Shown: positions 37,257 to 51,001 of the stretch, one piece after another
Layout of the letters: every line of letters begins with the position of its first letter
Position numbering within the stretch: the first letter of the stretch is position 1
Origin: Bacteroidota bacterium
GTDB lineage: Bacteria > Bacteroidota > Bacteroidia > Bacteroidales > UBA4417
NCBI GenBank assembly: GCA_013376995.1
Contig: JACAAZ010000011.1
Coordinates: 69,332 to 133,331, forward strand
DNA: 64,000 nt
Direction: 5' to 3'
The notes under the pieces: generated by a model
Told to the model about the DNA's origin: nothing
Databases searched by the model: none
Seen by the model: only the letters and a program-made list of their open reading frames with translations
Position numbers and translations under genes: made by a program

Positions 37257-40200
37257 ATGAAAAAAACTGACCTTTGCCAAAAAATATACATTAACGATTT
37301 CCTGATGATTTTCGGCTCAAAGAACTGTTATTCTCTACTCATTTTACTCTGTATACTGCTTTTAGGCAAAACATTTCATAGCAATGCCCAAAATGTTTTT
37401 CATCCGCAGAAGCCCGATCCAGGATGTGTTTCATGGGTTGATTCTGTTTATTCACGGTTAACTCCCGCTCAGCGGGTCGCTCAATTGCTGATGATCCGCG
37501 CCAATTCTGTTGTTGACTCAGGCGAAATCAGGCAGGTCGCTGCATGGATCAGGCAATACAACATTGGTGGTATCTGTTTTTTTAAAGGGGGTCCACTTAG
37601 GCAGGCAATTCTGACTAATTACTACCAGTCGATGGCTGCTACACCTATACTTATTTCAATGGATGCGGAATGGGGACTGGGTATGCGTTTGGATAGCACT
37701 ATTGCTTTCGCTCGTCAAATGACCTTAGGCGCAATGGCTGATGAATCTCTTATCACCCGCTATGGTGAGGAAATGGCCAGGCAATTAAGGAGGATAGGAG
37801 TACAGGTGAGTTTTTCACCTGTGGCTGACATAAACAATAACCCGGCAAACCCGGTGATAAATGTGCGCTCATTCGGTGAAGACAGAAAAGATGTTGCCAG
37901 AAAGGCGCTACTTTACATGAAGGGTTTGCAAAAAGGAGGTGTAATGAGTGTGGCAAAGCACTTTCCAGGCCATGGTGATACTGATACCGATTCACACCTT
38001 GCTTTACCAGTCATTGATCATTCTGCTGAAACAATTGATACACTCGAATTATACCCGTTCAAAAAACTCATTGAAGCTGGTGTTGATGGGATCATGATTG
38101 CCCATCTTTTTATCCCTGCGCTTGATTCCTCCCGGAATCTGCCTTCCAGCTTATCCAAAATTGTAGTCAATGATCTGCTCAAAAATAAGCTCGGTTTTAA
38201 AGGTGTGATCTTTACTGATGCACTCGATATGAAAGGTGCAGCCAATTTTGCCCCCCAGGGGATGGTTGAAGTGAAAGCTTTGGAGGCTGGAAATGATGTG
38301 CTTTTATTACCTGAATCTGTCGACAGTGCAGTTCAAAATATCCTGGCTGCAGTTGATAGCGGACTAATAAGCCAAACGATTATAGAAGAGCGTTGTAAAA
38401 AGATGCTTGCTCTTAAATATAAGTTGGGGATTTCTCAAACGCAGACAGTAAAAGTTGAAGGATTAGTTGCGGACCTTAATACCCCCATGGCTGATTACCT
38501 CAACAGAACTTGCTACGGATCAGCAGTTACACTTTTAAAGAATGATGGAGGTCTTCTCCCGATCCAACGACAAGACACACTTAAGATAGCTTGTGTGACC
38601 ATTGGTTTCAAAGATGAGACTCAATTTCAGCAACGCTTGTCTTCCTATGCTGCTATTGATCATTATTCTTTTCCAAGAGATCCGGAAGCAAGGCAGTTAT
38701 GGAAATTCAGGACTACACTTGATAAGTATAACCTGGTAATAGTCAATATAAACAATACACATCCTTCACCCTTACGTGATTTCGGGATTTCCGAGGTTAC
38801 CACCGCTTGGGTGGATACTTTGCTGGCCAGTAAGCCTTGCGTGCTGAATGTCTGTGCTTTGCCCTATTCTGTTGCCCTGTTCCGAAATGCTGACAAGGCC
38901 CAATCAGTTATCATATCTTACCAGGATAATGCTACAGCCTATGATGCATCCGCTCAATTGATATTTGGGGGAATAATGGCGAAAGGTCACACCCCGGTTT
39001 CCATTTCTGCAAGATTCCCTCTTCATAGCGGACTACCTGACGCCAATGTAAGCCGATTTAAGTTTACACTTCCTGAAGATGCAGATATTCCATCTGCTTC
39101 ACTAGCCAGGGTTGATAGTATAGTAAGAGAGGGTATGCAGGCAAAGGCCTACCCGGGTTGCCAGGTTCTGATAGCAGTAAATGGCAAGGTTATCTATTCA
39201 AAATCTTTTGGTTATCATGACTACAGCAATAAGGAACCGGTACTGAATTCTGATATTTATGATCTTGCCAGTGTCACTAAGGTGGCAGCTACTACCCTGG
39301 CTGTAATGAAGTTACACGATGAACATAAAATAGATCCGAAAAAGCCTTTATCCCGCTATCTTCCTATGCTTGATAACAGCAACAAGAACAAAATAAGCGT
39401 ACAGGAAGTGATGGCTCATCAGGCAGGGCTTGTTGCCTGGATACCTTTTTACAAAAAGGCCATGGAAGGAGGAAAATGGGATTCTGCTATCTTTAGCAGG
39501 GTTGCTGATTCATCTTTTTCTCTTCGAGTTGCTGAAAATCTTTATGTCCGTAAGGATTATCCGGCTTGGATGCTTGATTCCATTGTTCGCTCTCCGCTTT
39601 CTCCGAAGAAGGAATACAAATACAGCGACCTGGGTTTCATCCTCATGCAGCAGGCTATAGAACACATCGCAGGAATGCCATTGGACCAATATGTTAAAAA
39701 TGAGTTTTACAGTCCCATGGGGTTACCCACTCTGGGATTTCACCCCAGGGAAACATTTCCATTGAAAAGAATTATTCCGACTGAGAATGATACTGTATTC
39801 AGAAGGCAGGTGGTTCATGGTGATGTGCATGATCCAGCAGCTGCTATGATGGGTGGCGTAGCGGGCCATGCGGGCCTGTTCGGGAATGCTACCGACCTGG
39901 CTGCTTTGTTCCAGATGCTCTTGCAGCATGGGAATTATGGAGGCCAGCATTACCTGGATAGCTCAACTATAGAGGAATTTACATCGCGACAATTCCCAGG
40001 TAACCGAAGGGGATTAGGGTTCGACAAACCCCAGGATCCGGGTGAAGAAGGCCCTGCATGTGCTGATGCCTCCCCCAGAAGTTTCGGACACACAGGGTTT
40101 ACCGGTACTTATGTATGGGCAGATCCTGATAACCAGATGATCCTTGTTTTCCTTTCGAATCGAGTAAACCCGGATGCCGAGGATAATAAACTTGTAAAAC

Positions 40201-40301
40201 TGGGTACACGAACAAAAATTCAGCAAGTAGTCTATGATGCGATCCGGGAATCGAATAAACAGGTTAGCCCCGCGAGGAAACTTGTTAATTCGGCAGAATG
40301 A
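37257..40301 (+). CDS. Glycoside hydrolase family 3 fused to a beta-lactamase-like serine hydrolase
   Basis: 1014 residues. After a hydrophobic signal (SLLILLCILLLGKTF) comes a GH3 domain (about 55-400) of the beta-N-acetylhexosaminidase (NagZ) type: SVAKHFPGHGDTDTDSHLAL with the NagZ His/Asp loop, and FKGVIFTDALDMKGA with the catalytic Asp. A C-terminal GH3 beta domain follows (about 410-590). The last 380 residues are a class C-like serine hydrolase: SxxK in LASVTKVAATT, Tyr motif YKYSDLGFILMQQ and HTG in FGHTGFTGTYVW. Both parts fit peptidoglycan processing in the periplasm. The stop codon is directly followed by a heptamer array. Confidence 0.93.
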   Translation: MKKTDLCQKIYINDFLMIFGSKNCYSLLILLCILLLGKTFHSNAQNVFHPQKPDPGCVSWVDSVYSRLTPAQRVAQLLMIRANSVVDSGEIRQVAAWIRQYNIGGICFFKGGPLRQAILTNYYQSMAATPILISMDAEWGLGMRLDSTIAFARQMTLGAMADESLITRYGEEMARQLRRIGVQVSFSPVADINNNPANPVINVRSFGEDRKDVARKALLYMKGLQKGGVMSVAKHFPGHGDTDTDSHLALPVIDHSAETIDTLELYPFKKLIEAGVDGIMIAHLFIPALDSSRNLPSSLSKIVVNDLLKNKLGFKGVIFTDALDMKGAANFAPQGMVEVKALEAGNDVLLLPESVDSAVQNILAAVDSGLISQTIIEERCKKMLALKYKLGISQTQTVKVEGLVADLNTPMADYLNRTCYGSAVTLLKNDGGLLPIQRQDTLKIACVTIGFKDETQFQQRLSSYAAIDHYSFPRDPEARQLWKFRTTLDKYNLVIVNINNTHPSPLRDFGISEVTTAWVDTLLASKPCVLNVCALPYSVALFRNADKAQSVIISYQDNATAYDASAQLIFGGIMAKGHTPVSISARFPLHSGLPDANVSRFKFTLPEDADIPSASLARVDSIVREGMQAKAYPGCQVLIAVNGKVIYSKSFGYHDYSNKEPVLNSDIYDLASVTKVAATTLAVMKLHDEHKIDPKKPLSRYLPMLDNSNKNKISVQEVMAHQAGLVAWIPFYKKAMEGGKWDSAIFSRVADSSFSLRVAENLYVRKDYPAWMLDSIVRSPLSPKKEYKYSDLGFILMQQAIEHIAGMPLDQYVKNEFYSPMGLPTLGFHPRETFPLKRIIPTENDTVFRRQVVHGDVHDPAAAMMGGVAGHAGLFGNATDLAALFQMLLQHGNYGGQHYLDSSTIEEFTSRQFPGNRRGLGFDKPQDPGEEGPACADASPRSFGHTGFTGTYVWADPDNQMILVFLSNRVNPDAEDNKLVKLGTRTKIQQVVYDAIRESNKQVSPARKLVNSAE

Positions 40302-44542: not shown

Positions 44543-44558
44543 TTCGTATTTTTGCGAA
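44543..44558 (+). promoter_or_regulatory. Proposed ArsR operator 1 over the arsR promoter
   Basis: TTCGTATTTTTGCGAA, an imperfect palindrome. It contains TATTTTTG (44547-44554), an exact TAnnTTTG -7 element, and lies 15 bp before the arsR ATG. An overlapping inverted repeat GTATTT/AAATAC (44546-44562) adds symmetry. A sequence identical at 14 of 16 positions precedes arsC at 48206. Confidence 0.7.
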
Positions 44559-44573
44559 ATACTAAATAGTCTT

Positions 44574-44897
44574 ATGAAAATTCCTTATTCAGAAGATCAG
44601 GTCAAACTAGCCCGTTTTGCAAAAGCTATGGGGCATCCTGCAAGGATTAAGATTCTTGAGATCCTGTCAAATCAGGAATGTTGCTATAGTGGTAACATTG
44701 CGGAAGAATTTCCTATTGCTTTATCAACTTTATCACAGCACCTGAAAGAATTAAAGAAATCAGGATTGATCCAGGGAGAGATTAACCCTCCGCGGATTAA
44801 ATACTGCATCAACGAAGACAACTGGAAAGTTGCCAAGAAATTGTTTGATGCATTCCTGGTGGATAAATTGAATCAAAGCGAAGATTGTACTAGTTAA
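44574..44897 (+). CDS. arsR: ArsR/SmtB-family metalloregulatory repressor
   Basis: 107 residues, winged-helix fold: FAKAMGHPARIKILEILS, then IALSTLSQHLKELKKSGLI as recognition helix and GEINPPRIKYCIN as wing. A vicinal cysteine pair in NQECCYSG (Cys36, Cys37), with Cys78 in the wing and Cys105 near the end, is a plausible As(III)/Sb(III) site, different from the CVC motif of E. coli ArsR but known to me from Bacteroidota ArsR. It should repress the locus until arsenite binds. Its stop overlaps the next start (TAATG). Confidence 0.93.
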   Translation: MKIPYSEDQVKLARFAKAMGHPARIKILEILSNQECCYSGNIAEEFPIALSTLSQHLKELKKSGLIQGEINPPRIKYCINEDNWKVAKKLFDAFLVDKLNQSEDCTS

Positions 44898-45316
44898 TGC
44901 TAATTTGCATGAAAGAACATTTTAAGAATCTGGGGTTTGTCATTGAAGGTATGTTACACCTCACTGGGAGACAGGCATTGCAATGTCTTGAAGAAGGAGC
45001 AGTATTGGTGGATATCAGGGAAGACTTCGAATTAGCCATCAAGGATTTCCTTGTGGATGAATACATTCGTTGTCCATTCAGCGAATTCGATCAGAATTTC
45101 GATTTGCTGCCAAAGGACCGGGCTCTCATCCTGGCTGATTGTGTAGGGATTTCAAGTAAGAAAGCAATGCAAAAACTTCATGATAATGGGTATTCAATGA
45201 TAGCCAACCTGGCAGGCGGAATTGCTGACTGGGAAAAGGATGGACTGCCTATGAACAAGGATATAGAATCAATGAATGGTCAGTGCCCTTGTATGATCAA
45301 GTCCAGGAAATCATAA
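44897..45316 (+). CDS. Rhodanese-like domain protein
   Basis: 139 residues. Rhodanese fold: LTGRQALQCLEEGAVLVDIRED, FSEFDQNFDLLPKDRALIL, the active-site loop with Cys82 (ADCVGISSKKA) and ANLAGGIADWEKDGLPM. The tail ends in QCPCMIKSRKS, a CxC motif outside the usual fold that could bind a soft metal(loid). Probably moves sulfane sulfur or acts on thiol-bound arsenic; that is inference. It starts at the last base of arsR's stop; the fifth codon is also ATG (MKEHF). A 180-bp gap follows before the next gene. Confidence 0.85.
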   Translation: MLICMKEHFKNLGFVIEGMLHLTGRQALQCLEEGAVLVDIREDFELAIKDFLVDEYIRCPFSEFDQNFDLLPKDRALILADCVGISSKKAMQKLHDNGYSMIANLAGGIADWEKDGLPMNKDIESMNGQCPCMIKSRKS

Positions 45317-45500
45317 ATCATAATATCCTGCTATTATCATGAGATTCGACATGATGGATTATTGGTTTCAGTTTTTTAAATCCCTGAGGTGCAATATCTT
45401 CTAATTCGAAAATCATATTGCTGGTTTTTTGGAAAATCAATTTATTAATTCAAATCTGTTTTCGATACTGTCACCGAACTATAACCTTTAAAAAATACCA

Positions 45501-46247
45501 ATGAAAAAAGAATTTGTACGGGTCATCGCTACCACTGTGTTGATAATGGTTGCATGTTTTGTAATGGCTCAAACTAAAGTGAAGATTGATAAATCAGGTT
45601 CAAAAGGAAATGTTGTTTTCCTAGTGGTGACCGAAGGAAGCAAACAATTGCCTGAGGCTACTAATATGGCAATTAAAACGCAAAGAAAGTACCCTAAATC
45701 AGAAGTGATTGCCATGGACAGGACTGATAAAGCGAATTCAACCTTGGTAACAAAATATGGCCTGGCCGGTGCACCGCTTCCAATTATCCTTGTTATTGCA
45801 ACTAACGGAGTTGTGGCAGGTGGTTTACAGTTAAGTGAGGCAACTCCAGAGGACCTGCTTGACCTGGTACCAACTAAAAGACAGGCAGCTGCATTGCTGG
45901 CATTCAGTGAAAACAAGCCAGCCTTCATTGTGCTCTATAAAAAGAACATGAAAGACAAACTAAAAGTCGTGGAAGAATGCAATAAAGCTGCTGCTGGCCT
46001 GGGAGGAAAAGCTGTAGTCGTTGAAGTGGATCTTGATGATAAGTCAGAGACGGGCTTTATGAGTTTGCTCAAACCTGACATGAAAGCAACTACCACCCAT
46101 GTACTGGTCTTCAATGCAAAAGGTCAGTTTACGGATGAGCATAAATCACCTGTACAATCAGCAATCCTGATTGCATCTTCCAAAAAAGTGGTAAAAAGCA
46201 GTTGTGCTCCGGGGGCTTGTGGTAGTGGTGGTTGTGGTAAAAAATAA
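45501..46247 (+). CDS. Secreted thioredoxin-fold protein with Cys-rich tail
   Basis: 248 residues with a signal peptide (VIATTVLIMVACFVMAQT). Two stretches look like thioredoxin folds without a CxxC site: about 35-125 (VVFLVVTEGSKQLPEA to GAPLPIILVIATNGVVAGG, with a cis-Pro-like APLP) and about 135-230 (KPAFIVLYKKNM to THVLVFNAKGQF). The C-terminus is SSCAPGACGSGGCGKK: Cys235, Cys240, Cys245 in a regular C-x4-C-x4-C pattern, a plausible As(III)- or metal-binding site. It ends 11 bp before the ABC permease gene, so it is probably the periplasmic partner of that transporter. I know no characterised relative. Confidence 0.8.
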   Translation: MKKEFVRVIATTVLIMVACFVMAQTKVKIDKSGSKGNVVFLVVTEGSKQLPEATNMAIKTQRKYPKSEVIAMDRTDKANSTLVTKYGLAGAPLPIILVIATNGVVAGGLQLSEATPEDLLDLVPTKRQAAALLAFSENKPAFIVLYKKNMKDKLKVVEECNKAAAGLGGKAVVVEVDLDDKSETGFMSLLKPDMKATTTHVLVFNAKGQFTDEHKSPVQSAILIASSKKVVKSSCAPGACGSGGCGKK

Positions 46248-46258
46248 AATTGGGGGAT

Positions 46259-47476
46259 ATGAACTTATTAAAATTAGTCTGGCTTGAACTTGGCCAACGC
46301 AAAACGCAGTTGATATCAGGTATTATAGCAATAACTCTTGGGATTGGTGTAATAGTAGCGATTCGCTCAATTTCTGTAGTTTCAGAAAAAGCTGTAGCAA
46401 TTAACCTCGATAACCTTGGAGCAAATATCCTTGTTCTTCCGCAGGGAGCCAGTGTGGATAACTATTATGCAGCAGATATTGACGCTCCAACTTTCCCGGA
46501 AGAATATGTGGAAAGAATTGCTACTTCAGACCTTACAGGAGTCGACAATATGTCACCAAAATTGACCCGCAGGATTGACATAAACGGACAAAAATTAGTT
46601 CTAACCGGGATTCTCCCTAAAAATGAACTTGCATCAAAGCCTATTTGGCAGAATTCCGGGTTATTTGGTGCAGATTTGAAAGCTTCGTGCGGATCAAATC
46701 CATCGAATGCCACATTGGGCTATAAAGATGAGAAACTCCAGCGGAAATCTATAGATTCGCTGGGGCTTACAGATTGCCTGATTGGGTCTGTGGCTGCAAG
46801 CAGGTTGAAACTTGAGGAAGGAGATATTCTAAAGATTTCCGGGACAGGGTTAAAAGTTGCCAGGGTACTTGGTGAGACTGGAACTGTAGATGATGACAGG
46901 GTTTTCGCCCATCTTCATACTGTACAGGTTATTTTGGGAATAAAGGACCAGGTTAGTGCCATTGAAATAATGGGCTGTTGTAATGCTATTTCAGAAGGGT
47001 TACTCAGTAAACTGCGCAATATTTTGCCAGATACAAAGGTGACAACCATCGGCCAAATTGTATCCACTCAGATCAAAACAAACAAACTGATGAACCAGGT
47101 ATCTTTGATCATGCTGATAATTATTGTATTTGTCGGGGGAATATCGATTGGGAATTATATGTGGGCAAATGTTAATGAGCGGAAAAGAGAAATCGGCATC
47201 TTACGCATGATTGGTTACTCCAAGTCATCAATCTATGCTTTGCTTATGCTTAAGGCGACTATTATGGGTTTTGTTGGAGGGGTAATTGGGTTCCTGGCCG
47301 GTGTTTTGATTGCATGGTTCCTAGGGCCATACATTGCCGGGATAAACATAGCACCGATACCCATACTTTTATTGTGGTCTATACTGATCTCAATATTCAT
47401 TTCTTTGGCTGGATCAATACTGCCAGCATGGTTTGCAGCTCGTTTCGAACCCTTCACCAATATGCAGGAAGTATGA
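46259..47476 (+). CDS. FtsX/MacB-type ABC transporter permease
   Basis: 405 residues from the ATG at 46259, preceded by GGGGGAT; the listed start is a TTG nine bases earlier. Layout: TM1 (about 19-37), a 240-residue extracytoplasmic domain, then three TM segments with REIGILRMIGYSKSSIY between TM2 and TM3, the FtsX/MacB signature. The outer domain has four cysteines: Cys144 (KASCGSN), Cys173 (LTDCLIG) and adjacent Cys240-Cys241 (IMGCCNA), unusual for this family and suggestive of soft-metal binding or disulfides. MacB-type proteins work by mechanotransmission on periplasmic partners. The stop overlaps the ATPase start (ATGA). Confidence 0.88.
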   Translation: MNLLKLVWLELGQRKTQLISGIIAITLGIGVIVAIRSISVVSEKAVAINLDNLGANILVLPQGASVDNYYAADIDAPTFPEEYVERIATSDLTGVDNMSPKLTRRIDINGQKLVLTGILPKNELASKPIWQNSGLFGADLKASCGSNPSNATLGYKDEKLQRKSIDSLGLTDCLIGSVAASRLKLEEGDILKISGTGLKVARVLGETGTVDDDRVFAHLHTVQVILGIKDQVSAIEIMGCCNAISEGLLSKLRNILPDTKVTTIGQIVSTQIKTNKLMNQVSLIMLIIIVFVGGISIGNYMWANVNERKREIGILRMIGYSKSSIYALLMLKATIMGFVGGVIGFLAGVLIAWFLGPYIAGINIAPIPILLLWSILISIFISLAGSILPAWFAARFEPFTNMQEV

Positions 47477-48147
47477 CAACCATTTTAAATGTTCAGAATT
47501 TAGCAAAAACCTACAGGATGCGGGAAGGTATGGTCCATGCCTTAAATGATATTTCTTTCTCAATTAATAAAAGCGATTTCGTTTCAATAACCGGTCCATC
47601 GGGATCAGGGGAAACAACTTTATTAATGGCTTTGAGCGGGTTAATACGTCCAACCTCAGGAGAGATAATTTTTGAAAATAATAATCTTGTTACTGCTTCT
47701 GATAAGGAATTGGCTGGATACAGGAAAAAACATGTTGGTTTTGTAATGCAAAACTTCTCGCTTATTCCTTATATGACAGCTATTCAAAATGTTATGATCC
47801 CTTTGGGCTTAAATGGGCATTCTGAACGTGAGCAAAAGCAATTATCCGCATCAGTACTTGAGTTAGTTGGCCTTGGAAACAGGAAATCCCATTATCCAAG
47901 GGAATTATCAGCCGGTCAACAACAAAGAGTTGCCATTGCGCGAGCACTGGTAAATAAGCCTGATATCATTTTTGCTGATGAGCCTACAGGGAATTTAGAT
48001 CCATCCTTGTCGACCGGGATATTAGAGTTCCTTCAGAAAGTGAACAGGGAATTTAACATTACTATTATGATGGTAACTCATAGTCCCCAGGCTGCCAATT
48101 ATGGTGATGTGAAAATCCGCCTTGATGAAGGAAGACTTTGCAATTAA
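47473..48147 (+). CDS. ABC transporter ATPase with Walker A Lys replaced by Glu
   Basis: 224 residues from the ATG at 47473, overlapping the permease stop by 4 bp; the listed ORF start (47314) is antisense-free but lies inside the permease. LolD/MacB-type: Y-loop ILNVQNLAKTYRM, Walker A GPSGSGETT (Glu47 where Lys is near-universal), Q-loop GFVMQNFSLIP, signature LSAGQQQRVAIARAL (Ala for the usual second Gly), Walker B IIFADEPTGNLD, H-loop VTHS. The codon is GAA, one transition from AAA. A true E47 should strongly weaken ATP binding, so this may be a regulatory or decayed subunit, a sequencing error or a strain mutation. Confidence 0.9.
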   Translation: MTTILNVQNLAKTYRMREGMVHALNDISFSINKSDFVSITGPSGSGETTLLMALSGLIRPTSGEIIFENNNLVTASDKELAGYRKKHVGFVMQNFSLIPYMTAIQNVMIPLGLNGHSEREQKQLSASVLELVGLGNRKSHYPRELSAGQQQRVAIARALVNKPDIIFADEPTGNLDPSLSTGILEFLQKVNREFNITIMMVTHSPQAANYGDVKIRLDEGRLCN

Positions 48148-48205
48148 ACTGTAGCCAAATTCTTAATAATTTGATAATACACATAATAGGGGTAGATTTT
48201 CAAAC

Positions 48206-48221
48206 TTCGTAATTTTACGAA
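48206..48221 (+). promoter_or_regulatory. Proposed ArsR operator 2 before the arsC unit
   Basis: TTCGTAATTTTACGAA, arms TTCGTAA/TTACGAA around TT, a perfect palindrome but for the centre. It contains TAATTTTA, close to the -7 consensus, 82 bp before the arsC ATG. It matches operator 1 at 14 of 16 positions. Confidence 0.7.
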
Positions 48222-48303: not shown

Positions 48304-48741
48304 ATGAAGACTAAAGTTTTGTTTGTTTGTGTTCATAATTCAGCCCGCAGCCAGATGGCAGAAGCCTTCTTGAATTTAATTGCTGGCACTGAATTTGAAG
48401 CTGAAAGTGCCGGCCTTGAACCAGGAAACCTTAATCCTTTTGTTGTTAAAGTCATGAATGAAATAGGCATAGATATTTCAGGCAATAGAACTAATGGTGT
48501 TTGGGATTATTTTCGGAAAGGCCGGGTTTACCAATATGTGATTACAGTATGCGATGTTAATACTGAGGAAAAATGTCCAATATTTCCGGGAGTTACAAAG
48601 AGGCTGAGTTGGCCTTTTACCGACCCAGCATCCTTTACAGGTACAGAAGAAGAAAAACTTTCGCAAACAAGGTTGGTCAGGGATAGCATTAAAGCTGAGA
48701 TCGAGAATTTCATTCATACGCATCAGCAGGTAAATTTCTAA
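48304..48741 (+). CDS. arsC: Arsenate reductase, low-molecular-weight phosphatase type
   Basis: 145 residues. P-loop VCVHNSARSQ with nucleophile Cys9 and Arg15 (C-x5-R), and the redox pair Cys83 (ITVCDV) and Cys91 (EEKCPIF), matching thioredoxin-coupled ArsC. LSWPFTDPASFTG is the family's Asp loop. It reduces arsenate to arsenite for export. First gene of the second ars unit, after operator 2; the next gene is a related protein 19 bp downstream. Confidence 0.93.
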   Translation: MKTKVLFVCVHNSARSQMAEAFLNLIAGTEFEAESAGLEPGNLNPFVVKVMNEIGIDISGNRTNGVWDYFRKGRVYQYVITVCDVNTEEKCPIFPGVTKRLSWPFTDPASFTGTEEEKLSQTRLVRDSIKAEIENFIHTHQQVNF

Positions 48742-48760: not shown

Positions 48761-49183
48761 ATGAAAGTATTGATCCTTTGCACTGGGAACAGTTGCAGAA
48801 GCCAGATGGCCCATGGTTTTCTACAGTCCTTTGATAATGAGCTGACTGTATGCTCAGCTGGCACTGAAGCTTCCGGCAAACTCAACCCCAAAGCAGTTGA
48901 AGTAATGGAAGAAATTGGAATTGATATAAGTCATCACACATCCGATTCAATCGATTTGTATCTTAACGAGGAATGGGATTATGTAATTACTGTGTGCGGT
49001 GGTGCAAATGAAGCATGTCCTGCATTCCTTGGTAAAGTAAAACATCGTTTGCATATCGGTTTCGATGATCCTTCCCATGTTACAGGTTCAGATGATTTTA
49101 TATGGAGTGAATTCAGAAGGGTTCGGGATGAGATCAGGTTAGCGTTTTTAGCGTTTTATGAGAAGAATTTGACAATTCGGTAA
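48761..49183 (+). CDS. Second ArsC-like low-molecular-weight phosphatase family protein
   Basis: 140 residues. P-loop LCTGNSCRSQMA (Cys7, Arg13, with an extra Cys12), candidate redox cysteines Cys79 (ITVCGG) and Cys86 (EACPAF), and the Asp loop IGFDDPSHVTG. Only moderately similar to the adjacent ArsC, so it is not a recent duplicate. Either a second arsenate reductase or a partner with other phosphatase/reductase chemistry. Its last residues (LTIR) and stop codon are encoded by the first words of an octamer repeat array, so the original C-terminus may have been replaced. Confidence 0.87.
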   Translation: MKVLILCTGNSCRSQMAHGFLQSFDNELTVCSAGTEASGKLNPKAVEVMEEIGIDISHHTSDSIDLYLNEEWDYVITVCGGANEACPAFLGKVKHRLHIGFDDPSHVTGSDDFIWSEFRRVRDEIRLAFLAFYEKNLTIR

Positions 49184-49362
49184 TTTGACAATTCGGCAAT
49201 TCGACAATGAGACAATTCGGCAATTTGGAAATGAGACAATTTGAAAATGAATTAATTTAGGAATGATTTAATTTGGAAATTTGAAAATGAGGCAATTCGA
49301 CAATTCGGCTATGAGATAATTTGGCAATGGGTCAATTAGGCAACTTAGACAATTAGACAATG
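49171..49362 (+). repeat. Octamer array, GRCAATKN family (about 24 units), left of the four-helix gene
   Basis: Words of exactly eight bases in register: GACAATTC, GGTAATTT, GACAATTC, GGCAATTC, GACAATGA, GACAATTC and so on to GGCAATGG, GTCAATTA, GGCAACTT, then one-base shifted AGACAATT, AGACAATG. It begins inside the end of the second ArsC gene. Confidence 0.93.
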
Positions 49363-49429
49363 AGGATGATTTATCATTCTAAAATGATTGGTTATAAGAA
49401 TTTATTATTAATTTTCAGAAACTTGAGCT

Positions 49430-49783
49430 ATGAAAGATGAATTCAAGGAAAATGTGATTATTAACTTAACATTTGATTTTGCTTTAAAAATTATTGATTT
49501 CTGCGACGAACTTGAAGCCTTGAGAAAGTACAAACTTTCAGAGCAGCTATTTAAATCAGGAACTTCGATTGGCGCAAATGCAAGAGAAGCTCAGAATGCA
49601 GAAAGTAAAGCAGACTTCATTCATAAATTTAAAATTTCAGCAAAAGAAGTTGAAGAAACCGAATATTGGTTATTGCTTTGTAAATATTCTGATAAGCTTC
49701 CTGACTCCACTCAACTTTTATCTGACCTGGAACCGATAAAAAAAATAATTTCGAAAATAATAGGCACATCTCGAAGGATATAA
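49430..49783 (+). CDS. Four-helix-bundle protein (23S rRNA intervening-sequence type)
   Basis: 117 residues, all helical: LTFDFALKIIDFCDELEALRKYKLSEQLFKSGTSIGANAREAQNAES, then DFIHKFKISAKEVEETEYWL, the typical pattern of the small four-helix-bundle/IVP-like family. These are found in rRNA insertions and, in many Bacteroidota, as stand-alone genes at repeated or mobile sites; they form pentameric-type bundles and their function is open. It interrupts the order arsC-arsC2-acr3 and is bracketed by octamer arrays in opposite orientation, so it looks like an inserted cassette. Confidence 0.92.
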   Translation: MKDEFKENVIINLTFDFALKIIDFCDELEALRKYKLSEQLFKSGTSIGANAREAQNAESKADFIHKFKISAKEVEETEYWLLLCKYSDKLPDSTQLLSDLEPIKKIISKIIGTSRRI

Positions 49784-49906: not shown

Positions 49907-51001
49907 ATGCCCTCACAACCCCGCCTCAAATTCCTTGACCGATATCTGACTCTGTGGATATTTCTTGCTATGGCCATTGGCGTTCTTTCAGGTTACTTAT
50001 TTCCCGGAATCGCTAAATTTTGGGATTCGCTGAAATCTTCACCGGATAGCACGACCAATATCCCTATTGCCATCGGGCTTATCCTGATGATGTACCCGCC
50101 ATTGGCTAAAGTAAAATATGAAGAGCTTGGCGATGTGTTTCGCAACTGGAAAGTACTCATCCTTTCGCTCATTCAGAACTGGGTAATTGGTCCGGTCCTG
50201 ATGTTTGCCCTTGCCATATTGTTCTTCCGGCTGTTCCCTGGAGAAAACAATTCAAATCTCCCTTATATGTATGGCATAATTATGATCGGCCTTGCCCGCT
50301 GCATTGCAATGGTCATTGTGTGGAACGACCTGGCTAAGGGAGACGCACAATATGCCGCCGGTTTGGTAGCTTTTAACAGTATATTCCAGGTCCTGTTCTT
50401 TTCCGTTTATGCCTATGTCTTCATTGCAGTTCTTCCGGCATGGTTCGGGATCCCGACCAATGATGCAGTGGAAAGAATAACGATCGGACAAATAGCAAGG
50501 AGCGTTTTTATTTACCTTGGCATTCCTTTCCTTGCGGGATTTATCACACGATTTATCCTGGTTCGCATCAAAAGTAAAGTTTGGTATCAGAACAGGTTTA
50601 TCCCCAGGATAAGTCCAATAACACTTATCGCTTTACTTTTCACAATCCTGGTCATGTTCTCACTCAAAGGTGAATACATTGTAAAAATCCCTTTGGATGT
50701 TATCAAGATTGCCATCCCCTTACTTATCTACTTCCTGATCATGTTTATCGGGTCTTTCTGGATGAGCAGGAAAATAGGCGCAAGCTATGAGCAATCTGTC
50801 ACACTTTCATTTACGGCAGCTAGCAATAATTTCGAACTGGCCATTGCTGTCGCTATAGCCATATTCGGAATGAATTCCGGAGAAGCATTTACGGCAGTGA
50901 TCGGCCCCCTTGTTGAAGTTCCTGTCATGATCGCCCTGGTAAACCTTGCGTTTTATTACAAGCGGAAGTATTTCGCCCTAAAGGCAGATGGTAACTCTTA
51001 A
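49907..51001 (+). CDS. acr3: ACR3-family arsenite efflux permease
   Basis: 364 residues with about ten transmembrane segments. Family features: [20 protein letters not shown] at the N-terminus, [15 protein letters not shown], the essential Cys132 in [19 protein letters not shown] and the Glu in [15 protein letters not shown]. It extrudes arsenite from the cytosol using the proton or membrane potential. By order it should follow arsC in one transcript, but the four-helix cassette and its arrays now lie between; its ATG is directly after the right array, so translation initiation uses repeat sequence. Confidence 0.95.

Follow-up and report, generated by a model that had tools for sequence, protein, structure and literature searches.

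The window, i.e., the whole 64,000-nucleotide stretch of Bacteroidota DNA analysed here, carries an arsenic locus whose genes all lie on the plus strand in the order arsR, a rhodanese-like gene, the gene of a 248-aa protein, an FtsX-type permease, an ABC ATPase, two arsC genes, a four-helix-bundle gene and acr3. The arsR gene (44574..44897) encodes a CC-type ArsR/SmtB repressor of 107 aa with cysteines C36, C37 and C78 and a recognition helix from residue 50, and the rhodanese-like protein (44897..45316; PF00581) belongs to the same first unit. The 248-aa protein (45501..46247) has no family match and is kept in the ars loci of relatives; it is followed by the FtsX/MacB-type permease (46259..47476) and a LolD-like ABC ATPase (47473..48147). 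The products of arsC1 (48304..48741) and arsC2 (48761..49183) belong to the thioredoxin-type arsenate reductase family (TIGR02691, both below cut-off), and acr3 (49907..51001) encodes an arsenite efflux transporter (TIGR00832, above cut-off). The gene between arsC2 and acr3 (49430-49783) encodes a four-helix-bundle protein of the 23S rRNA IVP family, which is also encoded in the ars loci L057-L059, L065, L085 and L141. Degenerate tandem repeats of the type GACAATTCGGCAATTTG (49184-49370) lie between arsC2 and this gene. In the ABC ATPase, codon 47611-47613 gives GSGETT in place of the GSGKTT of a relative (G001), and this exchange of the Walker A lysine for Glu would point to an inactive ATPase or to a wrong base in the assembly.

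Two related 16-mers on the plus strand are predicted to be operators. Operator 1, TTCGTATTTTTGCGAA (44543..44558), is located 5' of arsR with 15 nt between it and the ATG at 44574, and is predicted from its exact sequence and its conservation across genomes. Operator 2, TTCGTAATTTTACGAA (48206..48221), is located 5' of the arsC unit, 82 nt ahead of the ATG at 48304. The sequence-only reading had called them near-identical palindromes. Of their 16 positions 14 are indeed identical, and TTCG and CGAA form a perfect inverted repeat around 8 nt; the full 16-mers, however, are imperfect palindromes, with 5/8 pairs at arsR and 7/8 at arsC. TTCG-N8-CGAA has just these two copies in the window, against 0.6 expected under a first-order model. 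When the 5.05-Mb genome was scanned by pattern matching only, exact TTCGTAWTTTTRCGAA was found twice, at the two sites of the window, and one additional site elsewhere appeared with one mismatch; with two mismatches allowed, the motif was no more frequent than its backward control.

The upstream site of arsR is widely conserved. Relatives of arsR were present in 146 of the 198 genomes sampled, which represent the genus of the window and its order, and the 60 best orthologues were examined with their flanking DNA. Footprinting upstream of these orthologues, as the sequence-only reading had proposed, retrieved TTCG-N8-CGAA within 75 nt in 43 of the 60, while shuffled upstream regions averaged 0.08, and the site is present in all 10 genus members having upstream DNA. 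In the genus-level alignment, the block ATTTCGTAYTTTTGCGAAATA stands as a conserved island in upstream DNA that is otherwise hardly alignable. The exact upstream site is absent in 17/60 orthologues, 7 of which have one just 3' of arsR. TTCG-N8-CGAA is also found 16-29 nt past the arsR stop in 27 of the 60 loci (within L051-L110), mostly ahead of a thioredoxin-like gene (MEIKVLGTGCPKCK), and this downstream copy may serve as a separate promoter or as a roadblock within the operon.

The arsC site recurs in G001 and G011, in which, alone among the other genus members, the arsC layout of the window was found. Both have the order ABC ATPase, site, arsC and the identical 16 bases of operator 2, while the flanks have diverged. 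This backs the proposed co-regulation of the arsR and arsC units. A CC-type arsR was not found in G011, the contig of which stops where arsR is expected, at a thioredoxin-like gene like those located after arsR in relatives. Judging from this contig end, an assembly gap would be the simplest reason.

The motif is also specific. A scan across the 198 genomes returned 65 exact copies of the motif, compared with 7 of the backward control. An arsR orthologue is no more than 440 nt away from 45 of the 65, and 33 of the 36 copies upstream of arsR share the direction of the gene. Among the remaining 20, about 10 are ahead of ars-type units as read from their ORFs (arsC, ArsG-like permease, thioredoxin-like), and the last five or so look like chance. 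A further five occur in one genome (G148; L150-L154) with no arsR near. A G148 regulon based on these extra exact sites was considered and rejected, as the copies are part of a CTTCGAAG-rich dispersed repeat. Hence the motif is nearly absent from unrelated places, where frequent matches would have told against an operator. Within the same loci of the order, TTCG..CGAA precedes CC-type genes in 46/64 cases and ArsR-type genes of other kinds in 0/16. Together with the conservation island, this comparison favours the proposal that the motif is the operator of the CC-type ArsR.

The repressor itself scores above cut-off with HTH_5 and NF033788. Its AlphaFold model (pLDDT 89) is matched by Foldseek to SrnR, ArsR 6j05, CzrA, SmtB and NolR. 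It thus has the winged helix-turn-helix of ArsR-type proteins. Comparison across genomes also assigns it a palindromic operator in the promoter region of arsR itself. The classic ELCV(C/G)D motif with its CxC pair is absent from the window ArsR, which has ECCYSG and KYC. Among the TTCG-type genes, C37 is found in 67/67, C78 in 66/67 and C36 in 54. A C-terminal CC is present in 9/13 genes lacking C36 and in only 3/54 of those having it (p = 3e-6), a cysteine pattern compatible with a ligand site made of thiols. Judging from the neighbouring genes, the inducer would be arsenite. Since thioredoxin-like and permease genes stand beside the orthologues, the inducer could also be another thiol-reactive compound.

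The sigma-ABfr promoters of Bacteroidota have the consensus -33 TTTG and -7 TAnnTTTG (PMC7366714). A -7-like element had been noticed in both sites, and this is correct: TATTTTTG (44547..44554, plus strand) in operator 1 matches TAnnTTTG exactly and TAATTTTA in operator 2 is one base off. A sense TAnnTTTR spacer is found in most operators of the phylum. Among ArsR-type operators across the phylum, TAnnTTTG or TAnnTTTA forms the spacer in 80, TAnnTTTG stands directly before the operator in 23, and neither applies to 17, counts which, like all the promoter and operator counts given here, cover related sequences and are hence not independent events. Within the spacer, TAnnTTTG is in sense orientation in 57 cases and antisense in 4. 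Where the box precedes the operator, the operator is about 10 nt closer to the ATG (p = 3e-7), and the box itself stays at about -30 from the ATG in both groups (medians -29 and -32). Likewise, a TTG is located 18-22 nt 5' of the box in 46/80 operators with the box in the spacer (5-12 in neighbouring intervals) and in 11/23 with the box before the operator (0-2 in neighbouring intervals). A -7 box inside the operator is therefore backed by its sense orientation, the spacing to the ATG and the -33 TTG in relatives.

The claim that the sites lie over the promoters of both units stands for arsR in part and is not established for arsC. At arsR the -7 box is exact and relatives indicate a promoter there, but neither site of the window has a TTG 18-22 nt from the box, the nearest being 27 and 36 nt away. 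A weak candidate for the promoter of the arsC unit (48170..48200, plus strand) consists of TTTG (48170-48173), 19 nt and TAGATTTT (48193-48200); its TTTG side is partly conserved among relatives, and its -7 side is not. Ending just ahead of operator 2, it might place this operator over the start site. Sigma-70 and terminator scans gave no excess over shuffles.

The outer bases of the operator differ among repressors. The core flanks ATCG..CGAT are mainly those of Flavobacteriales and other groups, and a second ArsR type has GTCG..CGAC or GACG..CGTC. Of the 126 genes with a perfect operator, those in which residue 50 is K, L or N, or is R after Ala, have TTCG in 65/65, and those with Q50 have ATCG in 48/49. 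Where R50 follows Ser, Gly or Glu, GTCG or GACG is found in 11/12, the sole exception (GRST) having TTCG..CGAA. The outer bases thus fit the first recognition-helix residues in 124/126 genes, which represent few independent changes, and residue 50 opens the recognition helix in the predicted structure. On the tree, about five operator changes are needed, only one of which is forced by supported branches, and the columns are few. The residue-50 rule was dropped as a proof by covariation because the changes on the tree are too few, and it counts as suggestive.

Allowing T, A or G as the outer base, the pattern has exactly three matches in the genome of the window, in two variants, each before an ars unit. 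The third is GTCG-TATGTTTG-CGAC, located before a second arsR, arsC and arsM. This second unit is on another contig (L268; G000:C19, record 40191-40206), where GTCGTATGTTTGCGAC is followed by an arsR of the SRTT type. The genome appears to hold separate arsenic regulons, with TTCG for the CC-type ArsR and GTCG for the second ArsR with its arsC and arsM. An initial conclusion that the other ArsR types have no operator, drawn from the count of 0/16, was wrong; GTCG..CGAC is present there, hidden by start codons called inside the operator. The called N-termini in L063, L086, L172, L051 and L141 (e.g., MSYVCDIKH or MFATLNIK) are the translated operator GTCGTATGTTTGCGAC, and the annotated arsR starts in these loci are probably too early.

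We consider it fairly probable that the operator of ArsR-type repressors in Bacteroidota is modular, with a -7 TAnnTTTG spacer, a common CG on each side, and outer bases that separate paralogues via the first residues of the helix, which would let one genome run separate arsenic regulons. The code that goes with this reading is suggestive: TT would be selected by Ala with K, R or L after it, AT by Q, and GT or GA by Ser-Arg.

Both sites are best explained as operators to which the CC-type ArsR of the gene at 44574 binds; this repressor would block RNA polymerase and be removed by arsenite, releasing both units jointly (probability about 0.85). That the sites are operators is strongly supported by comparison across genomes. 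What the sequences show is the two sites with their conservation, the register of the -7 box and the association with the CC-type ArsR; what we infer is binding, repression, induction by arsenite and the precise position of the arsC promoter. An ArsR dimer would place its two recognition helices on TTCG and CGAA and, the 8-bp spacer being the -7 box, would keep sigma and RNA polymerase off its own promoter. At the second site, ArsR would act as a block at, or just past, the arsC promoter. Arsenite bound to the conserved cysteines (C37 and C78, plus C36 or the C-terminal CC) would take ArsR off the DNA, and both units would be switched on together.

The signal is the point on which another explanation has the most room, although it is still unlikely: the CC-type repressor may sense a redox or other thiol-reactive signal, as RexT senses peroxide, instead of arsenite. 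Its Cys-Cys pair is close to the recognition helix, its half-site resembles that of RexT, and thioredoxin-like genes adjoin many orthologues. The gene company is nevertheless arsenic-specific, with arsC and acr3 in the window and ArsG or arsC/acr3 in relatives, and C78 is almost invariant in TTCG-type genes. Moreover, the RexT pair probably aligns a few residues later, and its half-sites are spaced by N15 against N8. It is quite improbable that the arsC-unit site is bound by a different ArsR-family repressor, leaving the CC-type ArsR with the arsR site alone. G011 would fit this, as its arsC site belongs to an operon with a second ArsR and a CC-type arsR was not detected, but its contig stops at a gene that comes after arsR and its permease in relatives. 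The second ArsR type, furthermore, has GTCG..CGAC at its own gene and TTCG..CGAA in just 1/12 (GRST), and in the genome of the window the second ArsR, with its own GTCG site, is on a different contig.

The palindromes could also act as RNA hairpins or terminators instead of DNA operators, as some of them can pair in RNA, the arsC site at 7/8 positions. With the -7 box inside, however, the 5' half would be at or ahead of the expected start and hence untranscribed, no terminator-like site was found in the terminator scan, and several sites with C5 and A12, which form no RNA pair, keep both DNA half-sites intact. On these grounds (start-site position, terminators, unpairable C5/A12) the RNA reading was rejected, and we regard it as extremely improbable.

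As far as the literature searched reaches, neither operators of Bacteroidota arsenic repressors nor this motif were found in it, regulon databases such as RegPrecise being outside its scope. An ArsR operator over a promoter is of a known kind; the new part would be the -7 box as spacer and the paralogue-specific outer bases. Bacteroidota are plentiful in guts and sediments. If the operator reading and its modular form are true, arsenic regulons of the whole phylum could be recognised by sequence, the presence of paralogous repressors in one cell without cross-talk would be accounted for, and a residue-to-base rule for ArsR-type repressors would be at hand, as would a set of arsenic-responsive promoters, separate from each other, for use in Bacteroides-type hosts.

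Operators of ArsR/SmtB proteins are palindromes that overlap the start site or elements of the promoter, with the repressor gene in its own operon (PMC5658604). E. coli ArsR, pI258 ArsR, SmtB and T. thermophilus TtSmtB are, like the window ArsR, small winged-helix proteins with their own gene in the operon. The ArsR/SmtB pairs, however, combine a 12-2-12 repeat with ELCVCD, whereas the window combines TTCG/CGAA around an 8-bp -7-box spacer with ECCYSG and KYC. An SmtB-type imperfect inverted repeat (12-2-12 or 6-2-6) was found neither in the window nor in its relatives, where the arrangement is 4-8-4.

RexT of Nostoc sp. PCC 7120 is an H2O2 sensor with a Cys-Cys pair, the operator ATTCG-N15-CGAAT and Lys50, where its recognition helix begins, as candidate for base contact (PMC8960804). 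It shares with the window ArsR the ArsR-SmtB family, a Cys-Cys pair and the half-site core, and differs in its N15 spacing (half-sites 15 nt apart were not found in the window and relatives, where the spacer is 8), in responding to H2O2 and in targeting a thioredoxin gene. Published NolR/RexT correspondences suggest that the window Cys pair is 3-4 residues earlier than RexT 40-41. The recognition helix of rhizobial NolR has Gln56 at its N-end, and this residue contacts A or T in a base-specific manner (PMC8960804, citing Lee et al., 2014); by family alignment residue 50 of the window ArsR is probably in the column of NolR Gln56 and RexT Lys50. NolR has the same ArsR-SmtB fold, but its operator is (A/T)TTAG-N9-A(T/A), it has no cysteines and it controls symbiosis genes. 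The operator spacer equals the -7 consensus of sigma-ABfr promoters, with the difference that here the half-sites of a repressor flank the box on both sides.
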